The notes under the pieces are model-generated. The model made no database searches. It worked only from the letters and a program-made list of their open reading frames with translations, and was not told where the DNA came from. Shown here one piece after another: positions 2,996 to 30,711 of a stretch of DNA of 46,874 nucleotides. Source of the stretch: Phycisphaerales bacterium (lineage in GTDB: Bacteria > Planctomycetota > Phycisphaerae > Tepidisphaerales > Tepidisphaeraceae); contig JADLBV010000018.1 in the NCBI GenBank assembly GCA_020847545.1, positions 1-46,874 of the forward strand, in the 5' to 3' direction. The first letter of the stretch is position 1, and each line of letters starts with the position of its first letter. The position numbers were made by a program, and so were the translations under genes.

Positions 2996-3571
2996 TCAGT
3001 TCCTTTCTTTGTCCACATACAACGATCCAAAGCCGACAAGGGCTTCAAAATGCGGCAGAAATCCGCTGCGAAAATCCCTCTCGGTTTTCACCGCCGCGAC
3101 ATTGCGGCGGATAAAGTCATAAAAGAGACCGGGAATTTTGGACGGCGACTTCCCATAGGCATCCGCCGCGGCCGCACTGAGAAATTCAAAGCGCGAACGC
3201 AGATGATGCCAGTTGGCCATGCCCGATTTCAAGGAAGTCTCCAAGCCACGGCAGTGTTGAAAAAACCGGCGCAGCTGGCCGGTCGTGAGCTTGGGGTGTG
3301 CGAGGGTCATTGCGCGGATCAGCTCTTCGACGCCGCGTTGTTTATCATCGCCTGGAATCGATGAACTGACATATTCAGTTTTTAGGTTGCCCTCGGCGTC
3401 GAAGTATCCTTCTTTCAGGTAATCGGGCCAATGATTGGCGACAGTGTCGTCAGGTTGGGAGCGATCTCGGCCGCCACGACCGTAACTCACTCCTCCGCCG
3501 TGGTGCTGCTGAGAAGAGTCACGCGGGCGTGCCCCTCCGCCGCCGAATTGTGATCCTCGAAATTGCGTCAT
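2996..3571 (-). CDS. csm2: Type III-A small subunit Csm2 with Gly/Arg-rich N-terminus
   Basis: Csm2 is the helical small subunit that lines the crRNA-target duplex in the Csm complex. The C-terminal 130 or so residues carry the family pattern, including LTTGQLRRFFQHCRGLE and a helical segment ending near FEALVGFGSLYVDKERN. At 191 residues it is longer than usual (about 120-150). The extra part is a glycine-, arginine-, histidine- and glutamine-rich N-terminus of about 45 residues with RG repeats, likely disordered and possibly RNA-binding. Its start overlaps the end of cas10 by 4 nt. Confidence 0.9.
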   Translation of the reverse strand: MTQFRGSQFGGGGARPRDSSQQHHGGGVSYGRGGRDRSQPDDTVANHWPDYLKEGYFDAEGNLKTEYVSSSIPGDDKQRGVEELIRAMTLAHPKLTTGQLRRFFQHCRGLETSLKSGMANWHHLRSRFEFLSAAAADAYGKSPSKIPGLFYDFIRRNVAAVKTERDFRSGFLPHFEALVGFGSLYVDKERN

Positions 3572-5058
3572 TGATCGTCTCCTTTAGAGTGTCGGGTCGC
3601 CAGCATCGCGTAGCGGATGATGGCGGGCAGGTGAATCAGTTCAATATCATTCGTATTCGGGCCACGGTCAAATTGTTGCAGCAGATGGTTGATCCACTGC
3701 CGGGCCGGGCCGCCTTTGGGCCAGTTGCGGGCGACGTGGTAACTGAGGCGCGATGTGGCCATGGCGGGGATGATTTCTGAGGAACGAGGTTGTCCCTCAC
3801 CACGGCGCAGTAAAGTCAGTTCCAGCAGCGTCTGCAACCAACCGCGTTGAATCTCTCCGGCATCCGTCCAGTCGGCCAGTCGATTGGCGGCAGTGATGAT
3901 GCAATCGTGCTGAGCCCATTTCCAGCAATCACCCAGCATTGCCAACTGGTCTTTGGGAGCATTGCTGCCGTGGGCGGGATGTTCCTTGGCTTGTTCAAGC
4001 AGTTCTTCTGCCTGATGCGCGGCCAGACGGATCGGAAACTTTGGTTTGACCAGCGCCAATCCGCCGCTGAGAGTCAATTTCTCGTTTTTGAATGCGCGGG
4101 TAAATTCATGGGAAACGCGGTGAGCAAAGTCAATCGTGATGTTCCACGGGCCGACCAGCAGCAGATCATCGCCGCCGGAAAAGACAGTATAAAGGTTGGA
4201 CCACGGAGACCCAGGGGCGTCCATGAGCCGGTTCAAATCGGTGCCGAAGAAGTTCTCGAGTTTTTGACTCAGGTCTTTCAGCGGCATCAGGTCGCGGGCA
4301 GATTCAAGCCGGCGATTCACGCATGCTCCGAGAGAATCAGCGTCCATCTTGAGAACCCCCAGCATGGACGTGCCGCGCGAGCGATTGGCGAGGGTCACGA
4401 AATCAATCGGCGCGTTGTTCTCGCGTGGAATGTGACGCGACAGACGGGAAAGTTTCAGCACATGGGCTGGGGCGGGAAATCGTTCTGGCGAAGGCGCATC
4501 CCATTGCACAGAGACACCGGCGATAGCGTCTTCGTCCGCAGACGCGGTGTCGTGATGAAGTGTAACAGTCGTGTGATACAGCAGCTGGTGACCCTGCCTT
4601 GCATCCCGATGGGCCTCCATCGTTGCATTCCAAGGCGCGTCGGAGACAAGCCGCGTTCTTTCGGTGGACCAGGGACGAAGCTTAGCCACCTGCAGTAGGC
4701 GCATCGCCATGACATATTGATCGCGGATTGTGCCTGAGGATGAATGAACAGCGAGCGCCAGCCGTAGCCGGCCATGGGTTTGCTCCATCAGCCACCGCTG
4801 CAAGACAGGTTCAAGAGCGTCTACACGCGAGGGAATCGACGCATGTTCGTCGGCATTGATGCAGAATTTTCCGGCGGCGCAGAAAATTAAATCTTTCTCT
4901 TCACAGTCCAGCGCCCAGAGGACGCGCCGCGAGATACATTCGGCCATAAGTTGCATTCTGAAAGAGCGGAAACGCAACGCGGCCGCCTGTTTTCCGCCGG
5001 TTTCCCGCACGTCAAACAAGAAATCCTGAATCCCAGAAAGATCACCGATAATCACCAT
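3568..5058 (-). CDS. cas10: Cas10/Csm1 without HD domain, GGDD cyclase intact
   Basis: This is the large type III-A subunit. From the ATG at 5058 it is 496 residues long and opens directly with the first palm domain (MVIIGDLSGIQDFLFD), whereas usual Csm1 has an N-terminal HD nuclease domain and 750-850 residues. The second palm has KMDADSLG (residues 238-245) and FSGGDDLL with GGDD at 295-298, the site that makes cyclic oligoadenylate from ATP. The start is set by an AGAGGA ribosome site at 5063-5068. The reading frame stays open further upstream, but there it lies inside cas4-cas1 and encodes no HD motif. It lies 8 nt after cas4-cas1. DNase activity is predicted absent. Confidence 0.9.
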   Translation of the reverse strand: MVIIGDLSGIQDFLFDVRETGGKQAAALRFRSFRMQLMAECISRRVLWALDCEEKDLIFCAAGKFCINADEHASIPSRVDALEPVLQRWLMEQTHGRLRLALAVHSSSGTIRDQYVMAMRLLQVAKLRPWSTERTRLVSDAPWNATMEAHRDARQGHQLLYHTTVTLHHDTASADEDAIAGVSVQWDAPSPERFPAPAHVLKLSRLSRHIPRENNAPIDFVTLANRSRGTSMLGVLKMDADSLGACVNRRLESARDLMPLKDLSQKLENFFGTDLNRLMDAPGSPWSNLYTVFSGGDDLLLVGPWNITIDFAHRVSHEFTRAFKNEKLTLSGGLALVKPKFPIRLAAHQAEELLEQAKEHPAHGSNAPKDQLAMLGDCWKWAQHDCIITAANRLADWTDAGEIQRGWLQTLLELTLLRRGEGQPRSSEIIPAMATSRLSYHVARNWPKGGPARQWINHLLQQFDRGPNTNDIELIHLPAIIRYAMLATRHSKGDDQ

Positions 5059-5062
5059 GAGA

Positions 5063-5068
5063 TCCTCT
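5063..5068 (-). promoter_or_regulatory. Ribosome binding site that sets the cas10 start
   Basis: AGAGGA on the minus strand lies 4 nt before the ATG at 5058 and overlaps the TAG stop of cas4-cas1 (5067-5069). It argues for the short, HD-less Cas10 and against any longer start in the open frame upstream. Confidence 0.7.
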
Positions 5069-6839
5069 ATCGAGTCGTTACTGAAGTATACTCCGGCACA
5101 TCCCCCCGCAACCAGCGGGAGAGAAGCCTTGCCTGCAGGCGGATCACGCTGCGCCAGGCGCAGCGATAGTCGAAGATCGGATGGGTCACCAGTTGGTCGA
5201 GCCGCGCCTCGTAGGCCCGCAGAAGGCCTTTGCGGCCGATGTCGTTCATGGCGCAGCCACTGGCGGCCTGGGTGAAATGGGCGGCGCGGACCATGCCGGT
5301 GTTGATGGCGCTGATGACGGCCGAATCGGCGATGACGGCGCGGAACGGCTCCATCAGATCCAGCGCCAACGCGGGTCGACCGTGACGCGGGCGATGATAA
5401 AAGCCCCAATAGGGGTCCAACCCCTCGCTCAGGAGGGCGACGGTGCATTCCTTGGCCAAAAGGGCATAGGCGAAACTGAGCATCGCATTGACCGGATCAC
5501 GCGGCGGACGGCGGTTGCGCGATTCAAAATCCCAGGTTGAATCAAAATCGCGCGGCTTGAGCATTTGTGCAAAACTGGAGAAATAACAGCGCGCGGCGTT
5601 GCCTTCGAGGCCCAGCAACACCTCGATGGAGGGGGCTTCCATGATTCGACCGATCAGAGAGTCGATGTCATTCAAAACAAGGTCCAGATCGGCCGATGGG
5701 GGCGCGTTGCGGCGGAGCTGGGTGCGCTGGTTCAGCGCCTTGTCGCGGACCAGCGTTTTGGCGAAAGAAAGGCATTTTTGCGGATCGGCGGCCGCATGAA
5801 ACTGGGCGGCCCGGTCGTAGGCGTTGCGGAGGGATTGGCCGTGGGTGATGCCATAAAACCACCAGCCGCTGGAGAGGAGCACAACGGGGATGTCAGACTC
5901 GCACAATAGGTGGATCGTCTGTGTCGAAACCTGCACATTGCCGCACAGGACAAGCTGGCTGACATCCTTTAACGAGGCTTTGGCCACCTCAGCGCCCTCG
6001 GCGCGGACGATGAGACTTTGGCCCCGCTTGCCGATGTAGGCGCCCTGAGTCTGAACATAAAGCGGCGTGGCATCCGGTCGGACGGGATAGAGCCGGCGCA
6101 CCATGGCCTGATCCTCATCACCCGTGCCATGACGCGGTTTGATCGGCGGCGCGACCAGTTCATCCCCAAGCTGACGAAGTGCCAATGTCTCATCCGGCAG
6201 GCAAATGCCGGCCAGCGAACAGCCGTTGCATTTGGGGCTGTCATCGAGCGGGTCGGGGATGGTTTGTCGGGTGGCGGCATGGTGAGTCTGTTCGATCAGA
6301 TCGCGGGTCTGTTGTTCGAGATCGGGTGTGAAGGGAACATCCACGCGGGTTCGCGAGCCGGCGAAATAGATCACCCCATGATCGCAGGTGTAACCATGTT
6401 CACGCAGGAGCAGCCCCTGCGCCATGAGCTGAACGCGGTGGGAATCATGGCTGCGCTGGGGGTTGTTGGGGACGCGGCCCCGTTTGGTCTCAACGGGAAT
6501 TGCCTCGGCGCCATCGGAACTGACCAGATCCAACTTGGCCGACAACCCCAGTTCGGCCGATGCCAGCGGCACGGAGCGGGAGATGGTGGGTGGATCATCC
6601 CCTTGTGGCGACTGATTTTGCGGGGATTCGACATCTGATGAGGTTAAATCGGCCTCCGGCAAAAGATGATCAAGCTGGTCCACCCGCCGATGAATGTGCC
6701 GGCCTTCGATGGTGTAGGTGTTGTCATCCCATCGCCCCTCGACATACATCAGATGAAAAAGGCGAGGACAGAAGGTGTACTGCTTGACCATGTCAAGCGT
6801 GAGGGCGTCGTCGCCGGTGATGGAGACGTTGGAGGGCAT
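5067..6839 (-). CDS. cas4-cas1: Cas4-Cas1 fusion (type I-G adaptation integrase)
   Basis: The N-terminal 220 residues are Cas4, a RecB-like iron-sulfur nuclease that trims prespacers. Cys24, Cys204, Cys207 and Cys213 fit the 4Fe-4S site, and the nuclease motifs include Asp104, VETKRG near 116-121 and Gln137. From about residue 245 it is Cas1, the integrase, with the catalytic region around LGLEGNAARCYF, HRPRHGRPAL and DLMEPFR. The 590-residue fusion is a hallmark of type I-G (formerly I-U) loci. It follows csb2 by 3 nt and precedes cas10 by 8 nt. It probably serves both the I-G and III-A effectors through the single array. Confidence 0.95.
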   Translation of the reverse strand: MPSNVSITGDDALTLDMVKQYTFCPRLFHLMYVEGRWDDNTYTIEGRHIHRRVDQLDHLLPEADLTSSDVESPQNQSPQGDDPPTISRSVPLASAELGLSAKLDLVSSDGAEAIPVETKRGRVPNNPQRSHDSHRVQLMAQGLLLREHGYTCDHGVIYFAGSRTRVDVPFTPDLEQQTRDLIEQTHHAATRQTIPDPLDDSPKCNGCSLAGICLPDETLALRQLGDELVAPPIKPRHGTGDEDQAMVRRLYPVRPDATPLYVQTQGAYIGKRGQSLIVRAEGAEVAKASLKDVSQLVLCGNVQVSTQTIHLLCESDIPVVLLSSGWWFYGITHGQSLRNAYDRAAQFHAAADPQKCLSFAKTLVRDKALNQRTQLRRNAPPSADLDLVLNDIDSLIGRIMEAPSIEVLLGLEGNAARCYFSSFAQMLKPRDFDSTWDFESRNRRPPRDPVNAMLSFAYALLAKECTVALLSEGLDPYWGFYHRPRHGRPALALDLMEPFRAVIADSAVISAINTGMVRAAHFTQAASGCAMNDIGRKGLLRAYEARLDQLVTHPIFDYRCAWRSVIRLQARLLSRWLRGDVPEYTSVTTR

Positions 6840-6842
6840 GGG

Positions 6843-8297
6843 TTAGGTTTCTGTATTCGCACCGGCATCTTTTATGGCCGCGAAGACACCCAGGCCGGTG
6901 TGGCGCTGGCGGCCGAGGGAGAGGGGACCGGTGAAGGGTTGATCAAATGTGAGTTTGACATGATAGCGCGGCGCCGGGCCGAGTTTGTCGCGCGGGACAA
7001 AGTCGCGCGCTTGGGGAACACCGGGCCACCAGGAGATGGGGCTGATCTCAACTTTGCAGGGCAGGGGGATATCCGCCTGATGCAGGGCCTTGCAAACCAA
7101 TTTTTCGGCCCGTTCGAGCGCCTTTTCCCCATTTTTGGACCGCGGGCGATCAAACCCCGGCAACAATACCGGCGAGACGCTGGCCCATTGTTTGGCGCTA
7201 CAGGCATACCACCTGCGTATGTAACAGTCATCGTGACGGAGACGAATCAGCCGGGCGACGGGAGCGGCATCAGGCTCATCGGGAATCAACAACTGGTTGT
7301 GAAAAAGCTCGGCCAAAATATGACAGATTTCCCCATTGCCATCAAACGGTTCGGCCAGAATAACTCGGCGGACTTGACCACCGGCGTGTTGATGTCCGAT
7401 CGACAGCAACGGCAGGATCGACAACCGTGGGCCGGCATATTCCTTGGGATGCCCGAGGAGCAGTTGATCGACCCGATCCTTTCCAATGGCATCGTGAACC
7501 CGTTTTGAGTTCATCAACCCACGAATCATGCCGACCAGCGCCTTGATCCGCCGGGGGTTAAACGGATAGGTCTCCTCATCATCATCAGGACGGCACAATT
7601 GGAAGGCACAAAACGGGCGCGCGGGCGATGAGCCGTACATTCGGATGTCGAATCGCTTTTTCCCCGGATCGTCGTGGATGACTGATTTGCCTGTTTTGGT
7701 GTCGAATTGAATGCGATTCAAGCTGGCCGCATGGGATTCTTCCAGCGATTGGAGGCTTCCAACGCAGGGGATGCGCATTGGATTGCCGCCGCGACCACCA
7801 TCGGCGGAAACGTGCACAATAAACTTTGGATCTGGATTGGGCATCGAATCGATGATCCGCCCGGTTCCGATGGCCATGTCGATCCCCCAGCCCAGGCAGC
7901 GAATGTGCCGGGCGCATTGGACAATGATCTCGGCGTGGCGGCGGGCGTCGCCCGAATCATCGGCCGACCAGCAGTAATCAACCCGCCAATCCTTGGATTC
8001 GCCGTCCAGAATGTGCGGATGATAAACCTTTGGCGTTCGGGGATGGTTCTCATCATTGTTCGGCACATAAACCAGAAGCGGATCGCCGATTCGAGCTTCA
8101 TGCGCATGAATGACGGGCGGTGGCAATTGTTCCAGCCATTGAAAGGCCATTAATCGCTCCTGCGCCCAATGTGACTTTGCACCGGCCAACAACGCCTGAA
8201 AGACACGATACGGCGACGGCGGCCATTCCGGCTCTCCACCATCCGACCGGCCATGAAACCGGCCGTCGAGCAGGCGGATTGTAAGATGGAGGATCAT
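6843..8297 (-). CDS. csb2: Type I-G Csb2 (Cas5-Cas6 fusion)
   Basis: Csb2 (GSU0054 family) joins a Cas5-like N-terminal half, which caps the crRNA 5' end, to a Cas6-like C-terminal half that cuts pre-crRNA. The 484-residue protein starts with the family opening LHLTIRLLDGRFHGR followed by EWPPSPYRVFQALLAG. It ends in a Cas6-type glycine-rich loop, GPLSLGRQRHTGLGVF. As no separate cas6 exists in the operon, this is the likely processing enzyme for both the type I-G and the type III-A complex. It overlaps csb1 by 4 nt. Confidence 0.93.
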   Translation of the reverse strand: MILHLTIRLLDGRFHGRSDGGEPEWPPSPYRVFQALLAGAKSHWAQERLMAFQWLEQLPPPVIHAHEARIGDPLLVYVPNNDENHPRTPKVYHPHILDGESKDWRVDYCWSADDSGDARRHAEIIVQCARHIRCLGWGIDMAIGTGRIIDSMPNPDPKFIVHVSADGGRGGNPMRIPCVGSLQSLEESHAASLNRIQFDTKTGKSVIHDDPGKKRFDIRMYGSSPARPFCAFQLCRPDDDEETYPFNPRRIKALVGMIRGLMNSKRVHDAIGKDRVDQLLLGHPKEYAGPRLSILPLLSIGHQHAGGQVRRVILAEPFDGNGEICHILAELFHNQLLIPDEPDAAPVARLIRLRHDDCYIRRWYACSAKQWASVSPVLLPGFDRPRSKNGEKALERAEKLVCKALHQADIPLPCKVEISPISWWPGVPQARDFVPRDKLGPAPRYHVKLTFDQPFTGPLSLGRQRHTGLGVFAAIKDAGANTET

Positions 8298-9766
8298 TCG
8301 TTCTCTCCATCTGATTCGAGTTCCGAGTCCGCCTCTGCATCATCATGTGACGAATTTTTCTTTTTCGACGGTTTATACTTTTTGAGCGTTTCTTCGATCA
8401 CTTTCAACGTTCCGTGGCTATCGACATCATTGTTAATTAAATCAATAACTTCGTTGCAGCAGACTTTAATGTTTGACTCTACTGCTTCACCACTCAATAA
8501 TTGGTCAATGGCTTCACGCACTTCATTGAACACTTCGGGCACCACTACAGGAGGTTGACCTTTTTTGGGCTTGGGTGGCAATTTCCCTGGCTCCTTTTTT
8601 GAACCTTTCACTCGCTTGACGGCATCATTGATCGGTTTTAATGGATCTGTCCCAACGGCTACGATGCTATCAAGTTCTCTCATAGTCAATGGACGTAGTT
8701 TGGCAGTGGATTTGAGAATTTTCCGTGTTTTCTCGGTTACCCATAGTTGCCTAATTCGATTAGCAAGTACCGAATCGAATGGCACCGTTTTCGAAGGACC
8801 AACGCCGAACGCATCTGCTGCCGCAGTTGCATATGTGAGTACATCCTGAGCGGTGACACGCAATGGCTCATCACTCCCTGAAGCGTGTACGCTCCGTATA
8901 GACATTGGCTGGTCCGGCACACCGACCAATTGGCACCCTTGCCGAAGCGTGAGTGCCGAGTTGTCGTGGGCCGTAAGAACAATCAATGCAAGGCCTAAAA
9001 TATATCGCTGGAGACTTGTTGGTTGCGTCCCATCCCTCATCGCTTGTACGGTAGCGAGATTGAGCAGACCGCTGCGAACAATGGTTCCATGTACCTTCAC
9101 ACCACCAAGCTGGCCACTTGCCGGCACAGCAGCGAATCCCAAGTCACTGCCAGTATTTTCATCAACATCATCGATCATCCCGTTGCCGACATAATCTGTT
9201 GCAGGGGTATACTGCGCGGATCGGCTGCGTGTCTCGGCATCCGTTGCATCGATTCTGAGAGTGATTAACCTGGGAATTTTAACCTGGGTGCCACGAGAGT
9301 CCCATGCGCCAAAGACGAGTGATGTGGGTGCAAGCTTGGCCATTGGCTCCGGGTTGCCAGCAGCATAGGCGACAAATGCCTCGTGGATATCAACAGTCAG
9401 TCCTGTAAACCGAACGATCGCGTCTGCGATGCGATGAGCAGCGTCAAGCAGATTCGTGGGGCCGCCATTATGGGTAACTGTAATTTGAGGGACTAAATGC
9501 TTATACCTTTCCGTTTTAAATAGAGGCTCCGCACGATTAGACTGTGCACCAATCGTATCAATGGCGCATGCCGCCGCTCGATTATTGTTGATACCGTCTA
9601 AATTGTATCGAGGCCTTTGATCGGGATCCCCTTTGGGTGCAGCATAGGTTGGGGGAAAAATCACGGCACCGAGGCCTTCCACAGGCATCAATGGCTTTTT
9701 TAATGCGAGTGCGGCCGGGCCATCTTCCCGTAGGAGATAATCAAATTGTTCAAGTAATTCGGGCAT
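8294..9766 (-). CDS. csb1: Type I-G Csb1 (Cas7 backbone) with charged C-terminal tail
   Basis: Csb1 (GSU0053 family) is the Cas7-type backbone subunit of the I-G Cascade. The 490-residue protein opens with the family-typical LALKKPLMPVEG and FPPTYAAPKG. The core ends near residue 360. It is followed by a low-complexity, lysine/proline-rich linker, a short helical segment and an acidic tail of Asp/Glu/Ser, which I do not know from this family. A ribosome site, AAAGGA, lies 7 nt before the ATG at 9766. The gene overlaps the end of csb3 by 17 nt. Its 3' third is AT-richer than csb2 (21 G/C in the 60 bases at 8341-8400). Confidence 0.92.
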   Translation of the reverse strand: MPELLEQFDYLLREDGPAALALKKPLMPVEGLGAVIFPPTYAAPKGDPDQRPRYNLDGINNNRAAACAIDTIGAQSNRAEPLFKTERYKHLVPQITVTHNGGPTNLLDAAHRIADAIVRFTGLTVDIHEAFVAYAAGNPEPMAKLAPTSLVFGAWDSRGTQVKIPRLITLRIDATDAETRSRSAQYTPATDYVGNGMIDDVDENTGSDLGFAAVPASGQLGGVKVHGTIVRSGLLNLATVQAMRDGTQPTSLQRYILGLALIVLTAHDNSALTLRQGCQLVGVPDQPMSIRSVHASGSDEPLRVTAQDVLTYATAAADAFGVGPSKTVPFDSVLANRIRQLWVTEKTRKILKSTAKLRPLTMRELDSIVAVGTDPLKPINDAVKRVKGSKKEPGKLPPKPKKGQPPVVVPEVFNEVREAIDQLLSGEAVESNIKVCCNEVIDLINNDVDSHGTLKVIEETLKKYKPSKKKNSSHDDAEADSELESDGENE

Positions 9767-10589
9767 TGTTGGTCCTTTCTTTTAATGCGGGTCCGAAAGC
9801 TTTATATTTTCCACCGGTTCGGACGACGAGTGGAAAACGATAACGAGCAGATTCAAGTACAGGGACAAGACCATGCATCACGGCAGCAGCAACTGAGATT
9901 GACAATGGTTCTGACCATGTGGCAAACCCATAATATTCTCGCCCGGAGATTGTTGAAGGTCTGAACCGCTGTAGACTGACAAGAGCAAGCAACTCAACAG
10001 CCGGTGAAAATGTGATTACAAACCCTTTTGTGGAAAAACCGGAGTCAATCGCAGTCAGGCGCGACATTCTGCTGTCATAGTAAAATGGTTTTGGTTTCAA
10101 GATAGGCATGGCCTTCCAAAGGCTTTCAGAATCATCGATGGTCCTTATGTGTTCGAGCATCCCATCAATAATCGGCTTCGGTGTTTGAGCCCCTGACCAA
10201 GTCTTGAATCCTGCTTCCTTTACTGATTCATCCTTCCACCAATCCAATATCAGCGCGGCATCACCTATTTTTAACACTAATGGTGCGACGCGTTCCTCTT
10301 GTTCCAGCAACTTAAGCTCCATTTTCTCGGCATCAGATCGGGCTCTCTTCTTTTTTAGGTATTGAATTCGTTCTTTTTTGCGTGGATCAAAATCTAGAAC
10401 ACAAGAGGTATTAAAGAGAATTTTACGCAAAGATTTGGCACATGCTGATTCGATAATGAACGTGTTTTCGTTAAAGAAACCACAAGCGCAAGAATCCACG
10501 CGGCTCGCCAATTCCAGCAACCCGCAGCAGGCCAGGAACTGCCCCGGATTGGTCAAATCCACATCCAATGTCAGCGTCGTAGTGCTCAT
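9750..10589 (-). CDS. csb3: Type I-G Csb3 (Cas8-like subunit)
   Basis: The 279-residue protein opens with DLTNPGQFLACCGLLELASR, the signature of the Csb3/Csx14 family of type I-G loci. The subunit takes the Cas8-like place in the complex, thought to help recognise the PAM and hold the R-loop. The middle holds a lysine-rich helical stretch (about residues 68-100), and the C-terminus has ReYYGFATWSEPL-like and FRPSTISG segments. It overlaps cas3 by 4 nt and csb1 by 17 nt. The part encoding the lysine-rich stretch is AT-rich (22 G/C in the 60 bases at 10321-10380). Family assignment is good; the biochemical role is from known relatives. Confidence 0.85.
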   Translation of the reverse strand: MSTTTLTLDVDLTNPGQFLACCGLLELASRVDSCACGFFNENTFIIESACAKSLRKILFNTSCVLDFDPRKKERIQYLKKKRARSDAEKMELKLLEQEERVAPLVLKIGDAALILDWWKDESVKEAGFKTWSGAQTPKPIIDGMLEHIRTIDDSESLWKAMPILKPKPFYYDSRMSRLTAIDSGFSTKGFVITFSPAVELLALVSLQRFRPSTISGREYYGFATWSEPLSISVAAAVMHGLVPVLESARYRFPLVVRTGGKYKAFGPALKERTNNARIT

Positions 10590-13249
10590 TGATCCTCCTT
10601 CTGTCCCTCATCCTGATCTTCGTCGGCCGTGGTTTTGGCATTCTGGGATGCCTCGGCATCCGCGGCCATTAACAGCGATTCGAGCCAGGCCAGACCCCAG
10701 TGGCCGTAACGTCGTTGCAGGCGGTCGAATCGACGGGCGATCTCGGCCGGTTTGAGTTCATCCGGAAGCTTGTCCGGCGGCGTTTTCATCGCCGGCAATT
10801 CAAAATGCGGCCGACCACGCCCATGATGAACGGCGATCAGATGCAGCGCAAGATCGCGGATCGATTCATCGGATGAAAATCCCTCCTTGGATTGTGTTGC
10901 CAACAACAACGACCCGAATTCATGCCGATAGCCATCCAGAAGCTTCCAATTTGGCGAAACCTTGAAGGTCTTGGCCCAGGCTTCATCGCGACTGGCATTT
11001 CCCACCGCCTTCTGCCAACGGCCGTCGGCGCCATCCCACCCCTTGCCCAGATCGTGATGCCGGGCCGCCAGACTGAGGGCTGTCTTTTCAGTTTCGCCCA
11101 GTTGAATCTTCCCGATCACGGACCAAACCTTCTCATCGACATTTTGATTGTGCGTGGAGATTGTGAGTTTGTGTGGACTATTGTCCGTATTTTCGCTGGA
11201 TTTCACATATAGCAAAAGAAGTCGCCTGGGCTGATTCTCCACATCAAGCGATAGAACCAGCCGCCCCACATATCGCATTTTCAGCGTTTTCCCCATGGCA
11301 TCGCGCGCGGCCGTCCATCGGGCAAATTTCTCCGTTGCTGAATTTTCCTCACCCAAAACCCGCACGGCCCATTCCCCATCCTCGTTTCGATCAAGAATGA
11401 CCCGCCGTCGGTCATCAGGCTCTGCGTCTTTGTCGGCCACATCAAGGACCGACCCTTCGTGATCCTTGTCGATCAACCCCTTGTCGCTTAATCCGCCGGC
11501 CGATGTTGGCAAAATAACCGTGCAATAGCGAATGTCATCCACCAGTTGCTTGGCGTTTTCGGTCAGTTCATTCATTTGTCGCACGGAAACCTGACGGTTG
11601 CGAATCAACACAACCCTTGCATCGCCAACCCGTTTCTGTGCCGATACAAGCATGTCGGCAATCATCTCCGGCTTGTCGTGCAGCAACTCCCTCGGCCGCA
11701 ATGGGTAGTGAGACAGCAGTTGATTCACCGCTTGGTCGTCCAAATCCCCATTTTCGGAATCATTCCATACATCCAACTCCGCCCGCCAGGCGACAAATGT
11801 TTGCGGCTGCGAATCCTCCAACCCATGCAGATATGGAGCGACATCGTGCGCCAACGGCCAATTCTCCTGAATGCTCGTCAACGACCAGGCATCCAACACC
11901 ACATCATGGGGTGTGATCGTCGGCACGGACGGCTCGCAGGCCTGTTTGTACCCCGGCCGCTCACGCCAATTTCCTATTGCTTCCGGCGAAGCGTCAAAAC
12001 CATCGTTTTGTTCTTTTTTCAACGCTTCAAGAAAATCAGCGCACGCCACCCGCGCACTTTCGATTGGGCTTAATTTTTTGGCTTTATCCCCCTTATCCTT
12101 CTTGGCGGCCGGCGTATCCAGCAGAATATCGATGGTCGCCTTTCGACCCTCCCCGCCGCGCCGATTGACCCGCCCAAACCGCTGGATCATGGCATCGATC
12201 GTTGAAAGGTCGCAGACAATATGGTCCGCATCGAAATCCGCCCCGACCTCGCCGGCCGATGTGGCGACCAGGTATTCGGTGGCAATGGGCTTGTTGGATT
12301 CCAGCAGATTTTTGAGAACTTGCTGTTTAACCAATTGATCCCGTTCATACCCTCGAATCGTGCCGGTCAGCAGTGCGATCCGTTCATCAGGCACCTTCTT
12401 TTTCTTCAAGCCCTCCACCACTTTGGCCGCTTGATCAGGCAGACGGGTGAATATGATGACTCTGGCACATTGGTCATTGTGTTCGTGGGCCAGTTCCGCC
12501 AACCTCACTGGGACGGACTTTCCATCGACGGATTGCAAACGGACCCGTTTGACGGCCTGTAATTTATCCTTGGCGATTTGGCGGTCATCGAAATCAATCT
12601 GAAGCACCTTGTCCTGATCGGGCCGCCCCGCCGTCGCCGACATGGGCATGATCCGCAACCCTCCCGCTTGGCCGTTTTGCTGTTGAATCACCCATTCGAG
12701 CATTGTTTGAAACGGCTTGCTCAGATGAGCCTCATCATGCACCAGCAACGCATCCTGCCCGAGCAACCCGGCATGTCGAGACCGCTGCCAACGACCGGCG
12801 CGATAACCATTGAACAACAATCGGCTGCCGATCATATCAACCGTGCCGACAACAATGGCCGGCCGATGCGGCGACAGCAGCCAGTCCCCTTTGTCAGCCA
12901 AGGCGCCACGCAGTGTGGAGACGCAAAGTGGCGAGTCTTGAAACTGATCTTTCCATTGCTGAAGAATTTTGACTTTATCTTGAAGCTTAACGGCGATGTC
13001 GGTTGCCTGATCAACTATGGTCCGCCGATTGACAACATAAATCAGCCGCATCGGCGGCCTGGCTTTGGCTTCACCAAGCAAATGAGCCAGCAGCCAAATG
13101 GCCATCACGCTGGTCTTCCCAAGTCCGGTGGGAATATCCAACGCATCCACTTTTTCACCCTCTACAAAGCTCACATACAATCGCCGCTGCCATGGATAGG
13201 GCGGATGGCCGGTCAACTCCTTGAATGTATCATCAAAATTCGCGGTCAT
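10586..13249 (-). CDS. cas3: Type I-G Cas3 helicase-nuclease (C-terminal HD)
   Basis: Cas3 unwinds and degrades target DNA after Cascade binding. From the ATG at 13249 it has 887 residues. The superfamily 2 helicase comes first: Walker A IPTGLGKT near residues 39-46, DEAH box VHDEAHLSKPF and motif VI QRFGRVNRRG. The HD nuclease domain is C-terminal, with ARHHDLGKGW and later LHLIAVHHGRGRP. This helicase-then-HD order is typical of type I-G. The start is chosen for the GGAAGGAA ribosome site at 13253-13260; a further 52 codons upstream stay open but have no signal. It is the first gene of the operon and diverges from a WYL regulator. Confidence 0.93.
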   Translation of the reverse strand: MTANFDDTFKELTGHPPYPWQRRLYVSFVEGEKVDALDIPTGLGKTSVMAIWLLAHLLGEAKARPPMRLIYVVNRRTIVDQATDIAVKLQDKVKILQQWKDQFQDSPLCVSTLRGALADKGDWLLSPHRPAIVVGTVDMIGSRLLFNGYRAGRWQRSRHAGLLGQDALLVHDEAHLSKPFQTMLEWVIQQQNGQAGGLRIMPMSATAGRPDQDKVLQIDFDDRQIAKDKLQAVKRVRLQSVDGKSVPVRLAELAHEHNDQCARVIIFTRLPDQAAKVVEGLKKKKVPDERIALLTGTIRGYERDQLVKQQVLKNLLESNKPIATEYLVATSAGEVGADFDADHIVCDLSTIDAMIQRFGRVNRRGGEGRKATIDILLDTPAAKKDKGDKAKKLSPIESARVACADFLEALKKEQNDGFDASPEAIGNWRERPGYKQACEPSVPTITPHDVVLDAWSLTSIQENWPLAHDVAPYLHGLEDSQPQTFVAWRAELDVWNDSENGDLDDQAVNQLLSHYPLRPRELLHDKPEMIADMLVSAQKRVGDARVVLIRNRQVSVRQMNELTENAKQLVDDIRYCTVILPTSAGGLSDKGLIDKDHEGSVLDVADKDAEPDDRRRVILDRNEDGEWAVRVLGEENSATEKFARWTAARDAMGKTLKMRYVGRLVLSLDVENQPRRLLLLYVKSSENTDNSPHKLTISTHNQNVDEKVWSVIGKIQLGETEKTALSLAARHHDLGKGWDGADGRWQKAVGNASRDEAWAKTFKVSPNWKLLDGYRHEFGSLLLATQSKEGFSSDESIRDLALHLIAVHHGRGRPHFELPAMKTPPDKLPDELKPAEIARRFDRLQRRYGHWGLAWLESLLMAADAEASQNAKTTADEDQDEGQKEDQ

Positions 13250-13252
13250 CGG

Positions 13253-13260
13253 TTCCTTCC
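13253..13260 (-). promoter_or_regulatory. Ribosome binding site for cas3
   Basis: GGAAGGAA on the minus strand lies 3-4 nt before the ATG at 13249, whose downstream codons begin the helicase domain. It favours this start over upstream in-frame starts, which would lie in the shared regulatory region. Confidence 0.65.
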
Positions 13261-13389
13261 CGGAAGAGATGCTTGTACCCTGTTGGCGGCGGCCGATCTG
13301 TCTTCCGTGCGCCAAAGGGTAACTCAGAACAAATGTGTCCTCGCAATGTACCGAATTCCTCTCAGCCACCAAAGAATGACTTTGGATGA

Positions 13390-13432
13390 TGACATCCTGA
13401 CACAACCCCCTGACAACCCTGTGTCAGTGACA
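13390..13432. promoter_or_regulatory. Putative operator in the cas3-WYL divergent promoter region
   Basis: The 209-bp gap between cas3 and the WYL gene holds a perfect 8-bp inverted repeat, CTGACACA (13397-13404) and TGTGTCAG (13420-13427). It is embedded in a cluster of TGACA words at 13390, 13398, 13411 and 13428, with TGTCA at 13422. Such repeated half-sites between a divergent regulator and an operon are a common operator design. The WYL protein is the obvious candidate binder. Binding is inferred. Confidence 0.55.
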
Positions 13433-13458: not shown

Positions 13459-14445
13459 ATGCGCAATTCCCGCCTTCCCCGACTGCTTCGATTATTGACC
13501 CTCCTGCAAAGCCGCCGGAGGTTCAATCCGGCCGATTTGGCGCGGGAGCTGGAGGTAAAGGAACGAACAATTTACCGCGATCTGGATGCGTTGCGGTTGG
13601 CGGGTGTGCCGTTGCATTTTGACCGGGAGGCCGATGCGTATCGCATCAATGGCGACTTTTTTTTGCCGCCTGTGCAACTGACATTTCAGGAGGCGATGGC
13701 GCTCTCCATCCTTTCCTCGCAACTGGGCCGCCAACGGCAGATTCCGTTTCTGGAGTCGGCCGAGCAGGCGATGAACAAAATCCGGTGCCGTCTGCCGCAG
13801 GTGGTTCAGGAAAAACTGGCCGCCACGGATGGACGGGTGCGCATGAGAACCGCCCGATCAGCGCACCAAGTAGGAAGCGACGGTCATTATGATCTGATTC
13901 AACGCTCCATCGCCGCCGGCCGAAAATTGCGCTGTGTCTACGACCATGCAAACCGACGGCGGGATCGTTCCCCATTTCTATTTCACCCTTACAAACTCTC
14001 ATTCGAGCAACGTGCCTGGTATGTCATCGGCCTGAGCGAAAAACGCGGCGAAGAACGATGGCTCAAACTCAACCGCATTCTATCATTGGAACCAACCAAC
14101 CTCCCCTGCAAGATGCCCGATGGCTGGACCCTGGAAAAATCCCTCGGCCTGGCATGGTGCATGATTCGCGGCAAACCCCGCTGCAAGGTGGCGGTCGAAT
14201 TTGACGCCGATTCCGCCCGCACCGTGGCCGACACGCGCTGGCATCCCACCCAGAAGATCACCTTTCGACCCGATGGCTCGTGTCTGTTTGAATGCGAGGT
14301 GGACGGCCTCGATGAAATCACTTGGTGGATTCTGGGCTACGGCCCCCACGCCCATGTCCTGCGGCCGGATGAATTGTGCGACAAAATTCGCGACATGATC
14401 CACCGCACGGCCGAAAAATACGAAGAACCGGCCTTCGCATCATAA
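13459..14445 (+). CDS. WYL-domain transcriptional regulator, divergent from the cas operon
   Basis: The 328-residue protein has an N-terminal DeoR-like helix-turn-helix (about residues 8-60, with ADLARELEVKERTIYRDLDA) and a WYL ligand-sensing domain from about 140 to 220, followed by a C-terminal WCX-like region. WYL regulators are often found with CRISPR and other defence loci, where they sense nucleic-acid ligands or damage and repress or activate the operon. It faces away from cas3 across 209 bp with TGACA-type repeats, so control of the operon and of itself is likely. The ATG has a weak AAAGGG site 6 nt upstream. Confidence 0.88.
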   Translation: MRNSRLPRLLRLLTLLQSRRRFNPADLARELEVKERTIYRDLDALRLAGVPLHFDREADAYRINGDFFLPPVQLTFQEAMALSILSSQLGRQRQIPFLESAEQAMNKIRCRLPQVVQEKLAATDGRVRMRTARSAHQVGSDGHYDLIQRSIAAGRKLRCVYDHANRRRDRSPFLFHPYKLSFEQRAWYVIGLSEKRGEERWLKLNRILSLEPTNLPCKMPDGWTLEKSLGLAWCMIRGKPRCKVAVEFDADSARTVADTRWHPTQKITFRPDGSCLFECEVDGLDEITWWILGYGPHAHVLRPDELCDKIRDMIHRTAEKYEEPAFAS

Positions 14446-14493
14446 AATATTCATTGTGTCCATCCCCCAAACCTGCGAAAATGCACCCGGCCC

Positions 14494-15429
14494 ATGCCAC
14501 CGCACGAGATCGACATTTCGTGGCAGGTGCTCCGACGGATCGTGCAGGATTGGGCAGGCACGGCGGCGGAGTTGGCGGAAGTAAAACCGCTGGTGGGGGG
14601 CTGCATCAACATCACCCTCGCACTCAAGATGCACGATGGAGCCAGGGCGGTACTCAAAATCTCCCCCCACCGCGTCTCCCGCGCCTATCAAACCGAAGCC
14701 TGGCAATTAAACGTGCTGCGCGATGCCGGTCTGCCCACTCCCCGTGTCTATGAATGCCGGCTTGGATCGCTTGATGCACCCTTCAGTTATCTGCTGATGG
14801 AATTTATCGAAGGGGTTGATCTGTCGCAGGCCCGCCAGCGCTGCTCGGCCGAGCAGTTCGATCACCTGCAAATGCACCTGGCCGAGATGGTGTTGCAACT
14901 GCACGAGCGCACGGCCGGGCATTACCGCCGGATCGGTCCGGATGACACACCTCAATTCGACAATTGGTCTGCCTTTTATTTTGACATCTATGACCCGATC
15001 TGGAAGGAGATCGAAAAATCCCCACTGCTCCCCGTCAAATGCCGCAAACAGATCGCCCGCCTGCACGACAAGCTCGATCATCATCTGCCCAACACCGACC
15101 GCCCAAGGCTGGTCCACTGGGACTTGTGGTCCACCAACCTGCTGGCCGCCCCCGATGACCACGGCCGGTGGTGGATCACCGCCATTCTCGACCCCAACTG
15201 CAAATTTGCCCACGCCGAGGCCGAAATCGCCTATATGGAGCTGTTCCAAACCATCACCCCGGCCTTTCTTCGCGCCTATCAGCAAACCCACAAGCTCCCC
15301 GCCGAATATCACCGCCTCCGCAAGCACATCTACCAGCTCTATCCGCTGATCAACCACATCCACCTGTTTGGGGCAGAATATGTCAAACCCCTGCTGGGCA
15401 TCTCAGAAAAGCTCGCGACAATCGTCTAA
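14494..15429 (+). CDS. Fructosamine-kinase/APH-like small-molecule kinase
   Basis: The 311-residue protein has the protein-kinase-like fold of the aminoglycoside phosphotransferase/fructosamine kinase group. VLKISP supplies the ATP-binding lysine, LLMEFIEG is the hinge, and LVHWDLWSTNLL is the catalytic loop (HGDLWxxN in relatives, here HWDLWSTN). AILDPN provides the metal-binding Asp. The substrate cannot be told: protein-bound fructosamine, an aminosugar or another hydroxyl compound are possible. It begins 48 bp after the WYL gene and could share its transcript, but nothing links it to CRISPR function. Confidence 0.75.
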   Translation: MPPHEIDISWQVLRRIVQDWAGTAAELAEVKPLVGGCINITLALKMHDGARAVLKISPHRVSRAYQTEAWQLNVLRDAGLPTPRVYECRLGSLDAPFSYLLMEFIEGVDLSQARQRCSAEQFDHLQMHLAEMVLQLHERTAGHYRRIGPDDTPQFDNWSAFYFDIYDPIWKEIEKSPLLPVKCRKQIARLHDKLDHHLPNTDRPRLVHWDLWSTNLLAAPDDHGRWWITAILDPNCKFAHAEAEIAYMELFQTITPAFLRAYQQTHKLPAEYHRLRKHIYQLYPLINHIHLFGAEYVKPLLGISEKLATIV

Positions 15430-15520: not shown

Positions 15521-16342
15521 ATGGCCAAAGGAAAACACGCCGCCGCGTTATTTGAAGTCATCAATCGGGGCAAAAAGCCGGATCAACAGGTCGGCATGAC
15601 CGGAGCCTTGCGCACCCCCCGCTGGTGGTTCAAACGCAACGCACAAGGACACTCCGCCCCTCCACCCGCCGCAACCGGCCAGTCCGAAACACCCTCCCTC
15701 TCACCCACTCCCACCCTTGGCGACGCCATGCGCCGGCCGGGGATCAGCCTGGACACCGACAAACAGACCATCTCCCTGAAATTGACCTATACCACCGCCG
15801 CCATCACCGCATTCGCATTGATCGTCGTACTGGGTCTGACCTATCTGGTCGGCCGAAGCCTCCGCAGCGGCCCGGCCGTCGCCAATGCCTCCCCCTCCAT
15901 CGAGGAAACCCTCCATCAACCCCCCCAGCCGCAGGTGATGGACGTCCCACAAACCACCGACACCCCCGCCACCGACAACCCCACCTCAGCCGTCACCCAA
16001 ACTCCCGCGCCAACACCCCCACCATCGGTTGTCGTACAGGATGGCAAACGGCAAAACGGCCTCAATTACGTCGTCATCCAAAGCTATCCGGATGAAAAAA
16101 CCGCCCTCGAAGTGCGCAACCTGCTGATCCAGAACAACGTCGGTGCCACCATCGAAAAAGGCCTTCGCGGCCTGAACCCCAACTGGTACATCGTCGTCGG
16201 CACCGACGGCTTCGCCCGCGTCAGCTCCCCCGAATACCAATCCTACATCCGCCGCCTGCAGGCCATCAGCTCCAAATTCGCCCAAAAAGGGAGCTTCAAA
16301 TCATTCGACCCGATGGGATACCGCTGGGATCGCGGAAGCTAA
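15521..16342 (+). CDS. SPOR-like single-pass membrane protein
   Basis: A cytoplasmic N-terminus of about 85 residues, with a conserved-looking RTPRWWFKRNAQG stretch, is followed by one membrane helix (about 88-112) and a proline/threonine-rich linker. A C-terminal domain of about 85 residues begins at NYVVIQSYPDEKTALEVRN and looks like SPOR, a peptidoglycan-binding fold. The layout fits an envelope or cell-division protein with its C-terminal domain outside the membrane. I recall similar proteins from planctomycetes but know no assigned function. GAGGTCAAGG precedes the ATG. It has its own promoter and converges on the acylphosphatase gene. Confidence 0.65.
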   Translation: MAKGKHAAALFEVINRGKKPDQQVGMTGALRTPRWWFKRNAQGHSAPPPAATGQSETPSLSPTPTLGDAMRRPGISLDTDKQTISLKLTYTTAAITAFALIVVLGLTYLVGRSLRSGPAVANASPSIEETLHQPPQPQVMDVPQTTDTPATDNPTSAVTQTPAPTPPPSVVVQDGKRQNGLNYVVIQSYPDEKTALEVRNLLIQNNVGATIEKGLRGLNPNWYIVVGTDGFARVSSPEYQSYIRRLQAISSKFAQKGSFKSFDPMGYRWDRGS

Positions 16343-16346
16343 AAAC

Positions 16347-16364
16347 GGGGTCAGGAAGGTTTTT
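16347..16364 (+). repeat. Dispersed intergenic repeat, copy 1
   Basis: The 18 bases GGGGTCAGGAAGGTTTTT recur exactly at 30658-30675, and both copies continue into similar T- and G-rich sequence. GGGGTCAG-type words commonly flank REP-associated tyrosine transposase genes. No such gene is present here, so this would be a remnant or solo copy. Confidence 0.5.
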
Positions 16365-16440
16365 CTGTGTTTTGTAAAGTTCGCACCTAATGTAAACCAT
16401 GCTGCTCGGTTGCGTGGATACGAATGGAATTGAAACGCCC

Positions 16441-30584: not shown

Positions 30585-30657
30585 TCCCATCCCACCCACG
30601 AAGCAGCGTCAATCACACAAAATCCACCCGCGAATCTTGCGCCGCAAAGAAAACAAA

Positions 30658-30675
30658 GGGGTCAGGAAGGTTTTT
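30658..30675 (+). repeat. Dispersed intergenic repeat, copy 2
   Basis: This is an exact second copy of the 18-base word at 16347-16364, again in an intergenic region and followed by T-rich sequence. Confidence 0.5.
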
Positions 30676-30711
30676 TTGATTTTTGGAAGGAGGAGATGAT
30701 GACGATCAATC

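Follow-up and report, generated by a model that had tools for sequence, protein, structure and literature searches.

The window analyzed here, a stretch of 46,874 nucleotides from a Phycisphaerales bacterium (contig JADLBV010000018.1), carries eleven genes that run from cas3 to cas2 on the minus strand with intergenic spacing of −17 to 23 nt. Their order is cas3g, cas8g2, csb1, csb2, cas4-cas1, cas10, csm2, csm3, csm4, a CARF gene, and cas2, beyond which lies a CRISPR array. The genes that define type I-G are all present, with matches above or near the model cutoffs: cas3g, encoding helicase motifs and a C-terminal HD nuclease (HHDLGK) (10586 to 13405; TIGR02621 positions 1 to 854), whose family match begins at 13240 and whose true start is uncertain; cas8g2 (csb3) (9750 to 10589; TIGR04106, 133.9 bits against a cutoff of 125); csb1, the Cas7 of I-G (8294 to 9766; TIGR02570 and PF09617); csb2, the Cas5-Cas6 fusion of I-G (6843 to 8297; PF09609 and PADLOC Cas56g); and an I-G-type cas4-cas1 fusion (5067 to 6839; NF049935, 685.9 bits), which lies 8 nt upstream of cas10. 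As in type III-A systems, cas10 (3568 to 5058) is followed by csm2 (Cas11; 2996 to 3571; PF03750 and alignment), csm3 (Cas7; 2306 to 2992; TIGR02582), where alignment shows the catalytic Asp34 to be conserved, and csm4 (Cas5; 1326 to 2309; TIGR01903, 91.5 bits). Next come a gene for a lone CARF protein of the APE2256 family (631 to 1323; 230 aa; PF09651, PADLOC CARF7--CARF, and PDB relatives), cas2 (317 to 607; PF09827 and TIGR01573), and, beside the contig end that truncates the array, two CRISPR repeats (33 to 142), whose minus-strand reading ends in ATTGAAGC. What sets the locus apart from type I-G is that a CARF gene and a III-A core, complete but for csm5, separate cas4-cas1 from cas2. 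Exact protospacers for parts of two array spacers were not found in viral contigs. A WYL-domain regulator (13459 to 14445, plus strand) is encoded divergently from the operon, and a related WYL gene (about 31% identity) lies upstream of the I-G/III-A locus of Pyrinomonas (L028 1269 to 2309). Farther along the window, two 42-nt copies (16336 to 16377 and 30647 to 30688) are 81% alike and have GGGGTCAGGAAGGTTTTT in common.

The cas10 gene encodes 496 aa, from an ATG at 5058 to a stop at 3568 to 3570, with a GAGGA ribosome site 5 to 9 nt upstream of the ATG. The first residues of the protein, MVIIGDLSGIQDFLFDV, already belong to palm 1 (its first strand and helix), after which come a short linker without a zinc finger, palm 2 with the GGDD motif, and a C-terminal helical domain. 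The NCBIfam Csm1 profile TIGR02578 matches the protein well above its cutoff of 170 (267.8 bits, E value of 2.5e−79), and the match begins only at profile position 227 of 753; it begins at about 230 in six relatives or their parts (L022, L024, L026, and L028 among them). An AlphaFold model built from 11 clade sequences (mean pLDDT of 85.6) was aligned with VIA-align, and residues 1 to 490 fit solved Csm1 from residues 234 to 253 through about 757, with Z up to 27.4. Since the structural match starts only there, the missing part is the HD domain and the linker. The solved type III-A Csm1 proteins of L. lactis, E. italicus, S. epidermidis, and T. onnurineus share palm 1, palm 2 with GGDD, and the C-terminal domain with ours, which differs from them in having neither the HD domain, a usual but not universal part of Cas10/Csm1, nor the zinc finger. 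Both palm domains with the cyclase site are present: the GGDD at 295 to 298 and the acidic residues D239 and D241 are intact and do not vary among the clade sequences (11 of 11). The loss of the HD domain with the cyclase site intact is therefore confirmed, in agreement with the first-pass annotation, which had described a start at palm 1 behind a good ribosome site and an intact GGDD with its partner acidic residues.

Relatives of this Cas10 were gathered by one scan of genome contigs and one search of related genomes. Proteins with the same palm start occur in Planctomycetota, Acidobacteriota (one of them from the isolate Pyrinomonas methylaliphatogenes K22), and Gemmatimonadota; no relatives were found in viral contigs. 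In a tree built from palm-only columns (an all-column tree was also built), the window protein and its relatives form a single HD-less clade of 12 proteins with support of 100/100, adjoining HD-bearing Csm1 of the same phylum, which shows that the loss of the HD domain is real and old. No residues precede the palm in the clade, versus 195 to 312 in HD-bearing Csm1, and most Csm1 matches above the cutoff in a sample of 392 genomes of the phylum begin at profile positions 2 to 4, that is, with the HD domain. Mapping the HD label on the Cas10 tree required four changes, so the domain was also lost elsewhere (Arcobacter, Alistipes, and genome G424), and an I-G system is therefore unnecessary for its loss. 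L026, L028, and the split copy of genome G158 retain the zinc-finger cysteines, which the remaining members lack; the branch of the window has lost the zinc finger. Csm2 has a Gly/Arg-rich N-terminal extension in the clade (window 2996 to 3571) that is missing from Csm2 of T. thermophilus and Arcobacter.

The clade loci also lack csm5. It was found neither in the assembly of the window nor in the single-contig genome G027, and the only match above the cutoff among the 13 clade genomes (in G473) lies on a contig other than that of the Csm locus (L025). The genome of the HD-bearing relative L035 gave no csm5 match either, so the loss of csm5 may predate that of the HD domain. The Cas6-like half of Csb2 adjoins cas10 in L024, L027, and L028, and a Csb2-like end lies at the position by cas10 in L060. 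Csb2 is likely the crRNA-processing enzyme of both the I-G and the Csm modules.

Taken as a single gene, a cyclase-positive Cas10 without an HD domain is ordinary. Hoikkala et al. (2024) recognized the HD domain in 39% of type III loci and in 65% of those of III-A, and the cyclase in 92% (PMC11229360), so the domain is not obligatory in the Cas10/Csm1 family, HD-less cyclase-positive proteins are common, and the finding is less surprising than it might seem. That survey counts the same motif combination across subtypes, whereas here it marks one clade that is tied to I-G operons and is without Csm5. The part of the 2025 classification drawn on here maps HD presence on the Cas10 tree and contains no description of an I-G/III-A composite (PMC12669027). 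Such a composite with an HD-less, Csm5-less Csm module was undescribed in the open-access literature searched, and the conserved composite variant is possibly the new part. The HD-less Cas10 is characteristic of a conserved branch, which is usually accompanied, in the operon or elsewhere in the genome, by a DNA-cutting I-G system. In the clade, losing the Cas10 DNase and losing Csm5 go together with an I-G partner across three phyla, and its presence in the cultured P. methylaliphatogenes K22 opens two questions to experiment: whether selection on the Cas10 DNase is relaxed by a type I partner, and how a Csm complex is put together when Csm5 is missing.

We consider it probable that the locus combines the I-G system with a Csm module that signals and cuts RNA without cleaving single-stranded DNA (ssDNA), the two sharing the adaptation genes, a Cas6-type enzyme, and the array. 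A type I-G module and a stripped-down III-A module are tightly packed into one operon, with a single adaptation set, Csb2 as the one Cas6-type enzyme, and an adjoining array. Cas10 has shed its N-terminal HD nuclease together with the linker, and the zinc finger as well in the branch of the window, but both palm domains and the GGDD remain. Together with Csm2, Csm3, and Csm4 on a crRNA cut by Csb2, and presumably without Csm5, it would bind foreign transcripts; Csm3 would cut RNA through Asp34, the palm domains would make cyclic oligoadenylate (cOA), and CARF proteins would sense or destroy it. The complex would leave ssDNA uncut, and DNA would be cut in parallel by the I-G Cascade and Cas3. 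For Cas10 itself, signaling without ssDNA cutting is the best reading and, following as it does from the established biochemistry of Csm1, a likely one.

The CARF domain of the lone CARF protein in the window was matched over about 140 of its 230 residues, and no HEPN or RelE part was recognized. Its nearest solved relatives are CARF proteins of the APE2256 family, which comprises ring nucleases and CARF-RelE effectors; it shares their CARF domain. Scores against ring-nuclease models fell below the cutoffs (NF040951, 29 bits versus 600; NF040581, 11.6 versus 125), so that the protein seems too diverged for such an assignment, and its AlphaFold model (pLDDT of 40) is too poor to use. No relatives of it were found in viral contigs. 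It is the only recognized cOA-type partner in the window, and a search for two effector-related families in the draft assembly turned up no further APE2256 protein and nothing matching Csm6-HEPN; since only these two families were searched, and in a draft, a further cOA effector is possible. The lone CARF protein being the only cOA reader found in this lineage, the signal might regulate the operon instead of switching on a toxic nuclease. The full proposal, with an HD-less and Csm5-less Csm complex as an RNA-triggered cOA alarm that shares the array, Csb2, Cas4-Cas1, and Cas2 with a Cascade-Cas3 doing all the DNA cutting, and with the signal perhaps directed at the operon, is a speculative one to which we give a small chance.

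The small set of effectors also fits a reading in which RNA cutting is the main task of the Csm module, cOA counts for little as an effector signal in this organism, the CARF protein is a ring nuclease or a regulator, and defense consists of RNA cleavage by Csm3 and DNA cleavage by I-G. The APE2256-family relatives of the CARF protein and the assembly without a Csm6-HEPN match or a second APE2256 protein are in line with it. However, the cyclase site does not vary within the clade, the absence of effectors concerns two families in a draft assembly that may hold others, and relatives keep dedicated cOA effectors at the position of the CARF gene: CARF-HEPN proteins in L023 (by profile), L019 (a Csm6-HEPN match at the site), and L020 and L021 (from sequence similarity and the presence of an R-x6-H motif), and a CARF-RelE protein with a STIV B116-like ring nuclease in Pyrinomonas. 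We therefore regard this reading as unlikely. Two other genes were observed at related loci. In the HD-less Csm locus L026, which is without I-G, a membrane protein encoded after csm4 (13780 to 14577) weakly matches membrane effectors of type III and is therefore possibly a diverged cOA effector, and in the Pyrinomonas locus the ring-nuclease gene is followed by one for a 1,008-aa protein of no known family (L028 15236 to 18262).

A signaling Cas10 that does not cut ssDNA raises the matter of where DNA cleavage resides. The annotation had left it to the I-G Cas3, a proposal that stands as plausible but correlative. An I-G Cas3 above the cutoff was found in 9 of the 13 clade genomes and in 0 of 22 genomes with ordinary Csm1, a difference whose P value (Fisher test; P = 1e−5) overstates the case because the genomes are not independent, and the association may be largely one evolutionary event. 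In genomes G073 and G094 the I-G Cas3 lies on a contig other than that of the Csm locus, and the draft assemblies with L024, L025, and L027 showed none above the cutoff. The acidobacterial L026 has an HD-less Csm locus in an assembly without an I-G Cas3, and the I-G Cascade recognizes its own DNA target and does not act on command of Csm. A stronger version, with the C-terminal HD domain of Cas3 recruited by the Csm complex to stand in trans for the lost one, could appeal to the shared operon and to the statistical association of HD-less Csm1 with I-G Cas3; the example of L026, the role of I-G Cas3 as partner of its own Cascade, and the fact that neither a fusion nor a dedicated HD subunit was seen make it very improbable.

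The absence of any other HD domain in trans is well supported. A profile made from ten Csm1 HD domains, which scores 50 to 124 bits on HD-bearing control loci, gave nothing but trace matches to Cas3 when every frame of the window operon and of the related loci was searched, and the only HD-type nuclease motif between 3.0 and 14.5 kb of the window is the HHDLGK at 11059, in cas3. Across nine clade genomes the profile gave only weak matches of 18 to 25 bits, that of the window genome being an HD-GYP-like protein, and the HD part of TIGR02578 recovered only RNase Y and the HD-GYP-like protein from the assembly of the window; these were rejected as candidates. A separate HD gene, which the first-pass annotation had named as what would overturn its claim, was thus looked for, and neither the operon nor the assembly of the window nor any of eight related genomes yielded one. 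The same holds for its statement that no HD domain is encoded upstream: the cas10 frame is open beyond the ATG to 5448 (127 codons), inside cas4-cas1, where it is an out-of-frame reading without an HD domain, and in seven relatives with the same palm start the frame meets a stop within some 60 codons upstream, so an N-terminal extension was discarded. That the short Cas10 results from an error in start calling, sequencing, or assembly, as this open frame and the frame break in the cas10 copy of G158 might suggest, is hardly credible given those early stops, the loci of relatives without an HD domain in any frame, and at least ten other assemblies, including that of cultured P. methylaliphatogenes K22, that start at the same palm residue.

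The cas10 gene of G158 (L060 1001 to 2784), a member of the clade, is split by a frame break, and the same contig encodes two tandem I-G Cas3 genes (C23 4255 to 11201). In G094, the HD-less cas10 is closely preceded by a 93-aa frame (L029 220 to 501) that matches the start of other Cas10 models in palm 1 (DIRGIQQNIF) and is perhaps a remnant of a second Cas10.
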